Assembly (NCBI GenBank): GCA_913776195.1
Contig: CAJYMH010000027.1
Coordinates: 16,093 to 80,092, forward strand
DNA from: an uncultured Caulobacter sp.
GTDB lineage: Bacteria; Pseudomonadota; Alphaproteobacteria; Caulobacterales; Caulobacteraceae
DNA length: 64,000 nucleotides
Reading direction: 5' to 3'
Part shown: in pieces, positions 57,968 to 59,490 of the stretch
Layout: each line of letters opens with the position of its first letter
Position numbering within the stretch: position 1 is the first letter of the stretch
Position numbers and translations under genes: made by a program
Notes under the pieces: generated by a model
Told to the model about the DNA's origin: nothing
Databases searched by the model: none
What the model saw: only the letters and a program-made list of their open reading frames with translations

Positions 57968-58000
57968 CTTCTCCTGCCCCGCATATCGGGGGAGGAGAAG
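57968..58000. repeat. Short CTTCTCCT/GGAGGAGAAG inverted repeat, family 3
   Basis: CTTCTCCTGCCCCGCATATCGGGGGAGGAGAAG just after pheT; arms also at 61497-61642. Confidence 0.6.
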
Positions 58001-58063: not shown

Positions 58064-58207
58064 ATGCATCCGCGTTTCGACATCGCCGCGATGAACGCCA
58101 CGAGCCGCATGGCCTCGTGCGTTTCGCCGTGCGCCGCGCTCATGACCGCCACCATTAAAATTATGACCGTCTCCACTCGGACGGGGCGTCGGCGCGCGAC
58201 CACTTAA
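58064..58207 (+). CDS. Candidate attenuator leader peptide (core MTATIKIMTVSTRTGRRRATT from 58142)
   Basis: In-frame ATGs at 58064, 58091 and 58142; 7 Thr plus 2 Ile in the last 21 residues; below the ORF track length cut-off. Confidence 0.55.
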   Translation: MHPRFDIAAMNATSRMASCVSPCAALMTATIKIMTVSTRTGRRRATT

Positions 58208-58270
58208 AATCGCCGACAAAGATCGCAGGATCTTCCAAAGCCCCGCTCCGGAAACGGACGCGGGGTTTTT
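58178..58270 (+). promoter_or_regulatory. Transcription attenuator: antiterminator arm, hairpin and Rho-independent terminator
   Basis: Terminator CCCCGCTCCG-gaaa-CGGAcGCGGGG-TTTTT (58241-58270); CGGACGGGGC (58178-58187) complementary to GCCCCG(c)TCCG at 58240-58250; AAGATC-gcag-GATCTT at 58219-58234. Confidence 0.65.
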
Positions 58271-58314
58271 GTCGTGCGGTCTTCGTCGGTCCAAACTCAA
58301 AGGACCAGAACGAA

Positions 58315-58617
58315 ATGTCTTCGCTACCCAACACCTTCCCTCTGCCCGACGCGTCGCCCCAGCGATCCGTCGTTCACCTGCTGCTCGTCGCCGCGGCCAA
58401 CGCCCAGGCGGCGCTTGAGGCCGTGCGCACTGGCCTGGACCTGTCCGGCGGCGAGCTGGCCGGTCTCACGCTGAAGCCGCGCGGCGAGATCGTCGAAGCC
58501 TCCCTCAGCGTGCGCTCGCTCAGCGATGACGCCGCCGTGCGCCTGACCGCCAACCTCGCCAGCCGTCCGGGCGTCAGCTCGGCCCGCGTCGAGCACCTGT
58601 GGGGGAAAGCCTCGTGA
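58315..58617 (+). CDS. Small ACT-like domain protein (first of tandem pair)
   Basis: SD AAAGGA; RSVVHLLLVAAANAQAALEAVRTGLDLSGGELAGLTLKPRGEIVEASLSVRSLSDDAAVRLTANLASRPGVSSARVEHL fits a beta-alpha-beta-beta-alpha-beta ACT pattern. Confidence 0.75.
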   Translation: MSSLPNTFPLPDASPQRSVVHLLLVAAANAQAALEAVRTGLDLSGGELAGLTLKPRGEIVEASLSVRSLSDDAAVRLTANLASRPGVSSARVEHLWGKAS

Positions 58618-58868
58618 AACCGGACGCCGACAAACGCCGCCTGTTCATGGTCAGCGCCGCCGACACCACCGACGCCCTGATCCGCGTCCTAAACGTCGTG
58701 GCCGTGCAGCAGGCGCGGCTGCGGCGGGTGGAGGCCGCCCAGACCGCCGACGGCCTGACCATTTCGCTGGAGACGGATGACGAGGGCGACGACCGCGCCG
58801 ACCTGCTGGCCAGCCGCCTGGGCGCCTGCCTGGCCGTGCGCGGGGTCGGCTTCGGCTGGCGAATGTGA
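58614..58868 (+). CDS. Small ACT-like (IlvM-like) domain protein (second of tandem pair)
   Basis: RRLFMVSAADTTDALIRVLNVVAVQQARLRRVEAAQTADGLTISLETDDEGDDRADLLASRLGACLAVRGVGF; GTGA overlap with preceding gene. Confidence 0.75.
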   Translation: MKPDADKRRLFMVSAADTTDALIRVLNVVAVQQARLRRVEAAQTADGLTISLETDDEGDDRADLLASRLGACLAVRGVGFGWRM

Positions 58869-58887: not shown

Positions 58888-59490
58888 TTAGAACGGAATG
58901 ATGTTCCGCTGACGGCTGTAGGCCAGGTAGCCCACGTTCGCCCCCAGGCGCAGGCCGATGCCCGCGCGGATGGGGGCCAGGGTGATGTCGTCAGCGCGCT
59001 GGTAGTTCACGCCCAGGCCGCCGATCAGATAGGCCGAGCCTTCCACGCCGGGGAACCGGCGGAAGATCGCGTCCGGGAATTGCAGGTTGTAGCACAGGGT
59101 GAAGACCCGGCTGCCGTTGCCGCCGATGTCCCAGCCGATGGACGGCCCCTGCCAGAAGACCTCCTGGGTCGGACGGCCCTTCATATAGACCAGACCCCTG
59201 CCGTAGCGCGCGCCGATGGTGAAGGCGGCCGAGGCTTCCTCCCCCGCAATATAGGCCGTGGGCCGGCCATTATCGGCGAAGATCTTCTCCACCGCCCCGC
59301 CCAGGGCCTCGGCGGTGACGCCCAGGAAGTCCGAACCCTTCTGAACGATCTCGTCCATGGTGTAGGTGTCCGCGCGCTGGGCACCGTCCTCGTTGAAGCC
59401 GCCCTGCGGCTGCTGCTGCGGCTGCGCGGTGGCGCAGCCGGTCGTGGCGAACGTGGCGAGGCCGGAGGCGATGAGAGCGCGGCGGTCCAT
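58888..59490 (-). CDS. eipA: DUF1134 / EipA-family envelope protein
   Basis: YTMDEIVQKGSDFLGVTAEALGGAVEKIFADNGRPTAYIAGEEASAAFTIGARYGRGLVYMKG; lipoprotein-like N-terminus. Confidence 0.9.
   Translation of the reverse strand: MDRRALIASGLATFATTGCATAQPQQQPQGGFNEDGAQRADTYTMDEIVQKGSDFLGVTAEALGGAVEKIFADNGRPTAYIAGEEASAAFTIGARYGRGLVYMKGRPTQEVFWQGPSIGWDIGGNGSRVFTLCYNLQFPDAIFRRFPGVEGSAYLIGGLGVNYQRADDITLAPIRAGIGLRLGANVGYLAYSRQRNIIPF

Follow-up and report, generated by a model that had tools for sequence, protein, structure and literature searches.

Locus organization and two predicted ACT proteins

The window, which is the whole 64,000-nucleotide stretch analysed, comes from Caulobacter and contains in order pheT, a leader unit, two small open reading frames (ORF1 and ORF2), eipA and lepA (Table 1). 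A leader-peptide attenuator controlling two tandem ACT/IlvM-like proteins had been predicted here, and the leader ORF with its codon counts and in-phase ATGs, CGGACGGGGC, the terminator and both ORFs were all present in the sequence as claimed. The predicted pheT-lepA setting was correct at its pheT end, whereas lepA is not a direct neighbour, since eipA lies between. The leader unit is set apart from pheT by a long hairpin, and in three genomes a thiolase gene replaces pheT upstream of the unit; for these two reasons, the leader and ORF1-ORF2 were considered a unit of its own. The hairpin lacks a T-run and could represent either a repeat element or a signal for a 3' end. Among relatives the neighbouring genes varied (pheT, thiolase, msrA, MATE exporter and ybaK-like, named by eye from translations), and no enzyme gene was consistently adjacent; only the two ACT proteins followed the attenuator.

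Table 1. Position, strand and supporting evidence of the features at the locus
Feature	Position	Strand	Evidence or remark
Hairpin CTTCTCCTGCCCCG..CGGGGGAGGAGAAG just 3' of pheT stop	57968..58000	.	-25.4 kcal/mol, z -5.5
Leader ORF, 47 codons, MHPRFDIAAMNATSRMASCVSPCAALMTATIKIMTVSTRTGRRRATT then stop	58064..58207	+	read from sequence
Presumed control codons ACC ATT AAA ATT ATG ACC GTC (T I K I M T V)	58151..58171	+	before/at segment 1
1:2 hairpin CCGTCT / GGACGG (anti-antiterminator)	58167..58184	+	fold -8.7 kcal/mol; both-side changes in relatives
Segment 2, antiterminator strand within leader ORF, CGGACGGGGC	58178..58187	+	duplex with terminator 5' arm -19.8 kcal/mol
Long-range helix GCCGAC (58212-58217) / GTCGGT (58285-58290)	58212..58290	+	A-U to G-C changes, conserved
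GATC-GCAG-GATC hairpin	58221..58232	+	stem paired in 47/47 aligned sequences
3:4 Rho-independent terminator GCCCCGCTCCG-GAAA-CGGACGCGGGG+TTTTT	58240..58270	+	-24 kcal/mol, z -4.6
Segment 3, terminator 5' arm	58240-58250	+	
GGTCC..GGACC hairpin over ORF1 Shine-Dalgarno	58288..58306	+	fold z -3.0
ORF1, 100 aa, stand-alone ACT-fold protein	58315..58617	+	AlphaFold, ACT matches, ORF2 paralogy
ORF2, 84 aa from GTG, ACT_5/IlvM-like	58614..58868	+	PF13710, structure, IlvM profile
eipA (EipA, envelope integrity protein A family), between operon and lepA	58888-59490	minus	

The two ORFs overlap in GTGA, and ORF2 is translationally coupled to ORF1. AlphaFold models of both proteins showed a beta-alpha-beta-beta-alpha-beta arrangement (ORF1, core pLDDT above 90; ORF2, pLDDT 92), and Foldseek matches to the two models included not only ACT domains (PGDH, Rel, homoserine dehydrogenase, aspartokinase and AHAS small subunits) but also other ferredoxin-like folds, among them NikR and MgtC. 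ORF2 aligned with IlvN at a TM of 0.78. Both proteins are predicted ACT domains, and by profile comparison they are paralogues (E 6e-11). ORF2 is also related at the profile level to IlvM, the AHAS II small subunit (E 1e-6, against five rows, one from E. coli and four from Caulobacteraceae ilvDCGM operons). ACT_5 (PF13710) was matched by 26/29 ORF2 family members (best E 3.5e-5) and by none of the ORF1 family; the window copies of ORF1 and ORF2, searched individually, reached no Pfam family. Searches of PDB sequence profiles returned a weak IlvH match for ORF2 (E 0.05) and nothing relevant for ORF1. Structure prediction, Foldseek, profiles and inspection of the neighbours support the claim of two tandem ACT/IlvM-like orphans with no adjacent catalytic gene.

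ORF1 was detected in 30/37 Caulobacter genomes searched (own genome counted), some Caulobacter genomes lacking the pair, and in 0/24 genomes from other families of the order. The ORF2 profile found relatives in 55/199 Caulobacteraceae genomes and 6/22 genera, and diverged versions of the unit occur in five Caulobacteraceae genera besides Caulobacter; each of the 20 diverged loci inspected had a small gene ahead of ORF2 as well as a leader ORF and a terminator. The Caulobacter profile of ORF2 gave matches in 0/386 other alphaproteobacterial genomes of a 387-genome class sample, a search that a distant homologue could escape.

A translated leader and predicted mutually exclusive RNA structures

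The short form of the leader originally predicted (58142-58207, MTATIKIMTVSTRTGRRRATT then stop) contains 7 Thr, 2 Ile and 1 Val codons, with further in-phase ATGs at 58091 and 58064. Its frame was retained and its start was not: the most likely start is 58064, giving 47 aa, because same-frame leaders of 43-50 aa are kept in relatives, several clades having an upstream GGAG/GGGAG. In the leader alignment of relatives, most variation fell at third codon positions and 45% of single-base codon changes were synonymous, which argues that the leader is translated. The presumed control codons, upstream of the terminator and overlapped by the 1:2 hairpin (more weakly, and in another register, at P-type loci, described below), were assigned by their position relative to this hairpin and by the I/T/M/K bias, which is kept in relatives as the prediction of conserved leader codons had anticipated. 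Because the terminal ACC ACT (2/7 Thr codons) and the ACG at 58181 fall within or downstream of the antiterminator strand, they cannot be control codons. In clade A, control codons are scarce in the leader (near the 1:2 stem, a single one for each of Ile, Lys and Thr), and the signal for stalling may accordingly be weak or composite.

The region from the leader to the start codon folded at z = -4.9, and 0/200 shuffles were equally good. Computation yielded the mutually exclusive antiterminator and terminator typical of ribosome-mediated attenuators, and the three alternatives 1:2, 2:3 and 3:4 recurred across 47 aligned sequences. In every aligned sequence, segment 2 paired to the 5' arm of the terminator (own duplexes, -16 kcal/mol on average), and this pairing was better than that of shuffles (median 1.5% of shuffles as good). 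Folded alone, the 1:2 hairpin, which links the final control codons with segment 2, was no better than shuffles (-8.7 kcal/mol). In the 47-sequence alignment, the proposed structure paired 90% of cells compared to 36-46% with slid partners, and the covariation score was 0.085 compared to 0.061 for shuffled data. The terminator core stem was invariant (47/47), as was the antiterminator core, and these cores consequently give no covariation support; such support is found in the 1:2 helix, in the long-range helix and in a shifted-register clade, so the covariation predicted for relatives was found in part. In that clade (L025-L029), the antiterminator strand is CCGGAGC, pairing GCTCCGG in a shifted register; it bound its own arm at -15 kcal/mol and clade A/P arms at only about -9 kcal/mol. 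The W-clade arms are nearly identical to the clade C arms, and binding was equal. An Rfam covariance-model search of the element returned nothing at the gathering threshold, and its miRNA/sRNA matches were at chance level only. With this fold, this antiterminator and conservation of the unit in dozens of genomes, the elements exceed chance, and the conserved 1:2/2:3/3:4 logic supports the attenuator proposed in the original prediction. The attenuator and ACT readings passed most of the refuting conditions that this prediction had set.

Three further elements accompany this core. The GATC-GCAG-GATC hairpin has a counterpart in relatives that is mostly GATC-GCAA-GATC (GATC-GNRA-GATC type). The long-range helix encloses the terminator and can form in read-through RNA only. 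A complement overlapping the Shine-Dalgarno sequence of the first gene was present in 60/67 sequences, and the hairpin that it forms in the window shares sequence with the 3' strand of the long-range helix. Because these two structures overlap, a second, translational switch in the read-through RNA is possible.

Probable amino-acid signal of the leader and related attenuators

We compared the 14-residue stretch ahead of the antiterminator strand in 29 pair-operon leaders with nine branched-chain leaders of the same family. The pair-operon cores contained 15.5% Ile, 18.2% Thr, 18.5% Met and 7.9% Lys, with 3.2% Leu and 4.7% Val, so that I+T+M+K reached 60% (17% in background proteins) and L+V 8%. 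Each of the 29 leaders fell within the top 0-2.7% of background windows; the leaders are related by ancestry and hence are not independent samples, while the contrast between pair and branched-chain leaders spans genera. In the branched-chain leaders, I+T+M+K was 22% and L+V 40% (25% Leu, 14% Val, 12% Ile; Met+Lys about 2%, each below 1%). Pair-operon leaders such as SKTMMMIIIPITGTG, SKTTMMIIITPTIGTG and IKTVRVRTG contrast with LAVVIIPAPVG (ilvE), LITLVLLGLLT (ilvDCGM) and LKIVLIRRP (ilvBN, own genome). The own-genome ilvBN (L072:4785-4950) carries a leader (..LKIVLIRRPTST) and a terminator of its own. On these codon frequencies, the sensed set appears to be Thr/Ile/Met/Lys rather than the Thr/Ile/Val first proposed: Thr and Ile stand, Val drops out, and Met and Lys are added. 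Lys, Thr, Met and Ile are the amino acids derived from aspartate semialdehyde.

A covariance model of the RNA element (R1), run over 199 Caulobacteraceae genomes, matched nearly all pair operons and extra copies. In three close relatives of the window, one such copy lies ahead of ilvE and a P-type gene (E 1e-13); in two Caulobacter, another lies ahead of a lone P-type gene; and weaker matches precede ilvD-ilvC-ilvG-ilvM in another Caulobacteraceae genus (E 1e-6 to 1e-3); these enzyme names were taken from translations, with no family search behind them. Since copies precede ilvE and ilvDCGM, the element is tied to branched-chain and aspartate-family metabolism. At the ilvE loci (L156:2036-3700, L157 and L158, reverse strand), a Val/Ile/Leu leader attenuator is followed by a small P-type protein and ilvE. 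At the others (L161:1974-8001, L162, L163, L172 and L173), a Leu/Ile/Val-rich leader precedes ilvD-ilvC-ilvG-ilvM and then leuA-like or another gene. No own-genome copy of the P-type/ilvE unit was found in the assembly, which is 84% complete.

P-type proteins (L104-L115, L117, L119, L154-L159) are about 100-125 aa long and gave nothing convincing in Pfam. In several genera they take the place of ACT ORF1, and copies of the RNA element also precede a P-type gene on its own or one paired with ilvE. A relationship between P-type ORF1 and ACT ORF1 was unsupported (profile E 0.07, probability 0.8%).

Proposed mechanism, target and relation to known attenuators

From the computed leader, alternative structures, conservation, ACT folds, paralogy and codon bias, we consider it probable that the locus forms an independent unit governed by ribosome-mediated transcription attenuation, with two free ACT-domain regulators as its output; the stalling response and the action in trans are what we infer. 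The leader would be translated by a ribosome that, when charging of Ile-, Thr-, Lys- or Met-tRNA is low, would stall on the T-I-K-I-M-T codons and cover segment 1. Segment 2 would then be free for the terminator 5' arm, and RNA polymerase would read through. With all four tRNAs charged, the ribosome would reach the stop codon and cover segment 2, allowing the terminator to form; with no ribosome, segment 2 would be held by the 1:2 hairpin, and the terminator would again form. In trans, the ACT pair may then serve as allosteric subunits of an enzyme that helps to make aspartate-derived amino acids. More tentatively, one leader may read the charging of Lys-, Thr-, Met- and Ile-tRNA, with scarcity yielding a free two-ACT module that retunes an enzyme encoded elsewhere; if true, the supply of an allosteric subunit, beyond ligand binding, would be set by attenuation.

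Judged by sequence, the leading target candidate is IlvB; judged by leader codons, it is an aspartate-family enzyme. The IlvM likeness of ORF2, together with copies of the RNA element before ilvE and, weakly, before ilvDCGM, makes the Thr-to-Ile entry, AHAS IlvB, the most plausible target. The pair could accordingly be an AHAS regulatory subunit, an alternative to IlvN made only under Ile-branch starvation, which we hold to be possible though short of an even chance: besides the ACT_5/IlvM likeness and the genes behind the RNA element, IlvN.Val is a close fold match, and IlvB with IlvN is the sole AHAS found in the own genome. However, the pair leader avoids the Leu/Val codons used by the AHAS and branched-chain leaders examined in the family, and no AHAS large-subunit gene lies near the pair, the normal ilvB-ilvN pair of the own genome being located away from it.

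It is rather unlikely, but still worth weighing, that the pair regulates another aspartate-family enzyme (aspartokinase or homoserine dehydrogenase), in the manner of the beta subunit of alpha2-beta2 aspartokinases, a free subunit containing ACT. The control codons specify the four products of aspartate semialdehyde, and ORF2 also matches aspartokinase and homoserine dehydrogenase ACT regions; yet fold similarity between ACT domains is unspecific, and in sequence ORF2 is nearest to IlvM/ACT_5 rather than to aspartokinase ACT domains. Aspartokinase-like and homoserine dehydrogenase genes are present in the own genome. We regard as improbable a leader peptide or terminated attenuator RNA acting in trans, with the downstream ORFs secondary. 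Such action has a precedent in S. meliloti peTrpL (PMC7298713), and the clade A leader N-terminus is hydrophobic and conserved, but N-termini are wholly different from clade to clade, and the control and antiterminator part alone is kept. A supply in trans of the regulatory domain absent from threonine dehydratase was suggested by the own genome, an incomplete assembly in which the only threonine-dehydratase-like gene found encodes about 317 aa and no ACT domain. This reading was rejected as highly improbable, since full-length IlvA (model residue 376/380, own ACT) occurs in every other Caulobacter genome searched, among them the closest relatives carrying the pair.

The preferred reading, an attenuator whose output is two free ACT regulators, was compared with known systems. 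Proteobacterial amino-acid attenuators (thr, ilvGMEDA, ilvBN, his and trp), a type reported for C. crescentus ilvBN (PMC4117421), likewise have a translated control-codon leader, 1:2/2:3/3:4 alternatives and a U-tract terminator. Here, in contrast, segment 2 lies inside the leader ORF, the control codons mix Thr, Ile, Met and Lys, and a conserved GATC tetraloop hairpin, a long-range helix and an SD hairpin are added. No biosynthetic enzyme for the sensed amino acids lies downstream, which makes this use of a classic switch unusual, and no paper on this operon was found among the open-access papers searched. The locus would show attenuation controlling allosteric regulators instead of enzymes, its leader giving a codon-based readout of which amino acids the two regulators serve. 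ORF2 resembles IlvM (ACT_5, PF13710) in size, ACT fold and profile; unlike IlvM, it is not beside ilvG, sits in a tandem pair and, in its window copy, falls below Pfam thresholds, as does ORF1. The P-type+ilvE and ilvD-ilvC-ilvG-ilvM operons share a related leader RNA (same covariance model) and differ from the ACT pair operon in their Leu/Val/Ile leader codons and enzyme structural genes, pointing, within the Caulobacteraceae, to which a laboratory model organism belongs, to an attenuator family that comprises the ACT pair, P-type with ilvE, and ilvDCGM.
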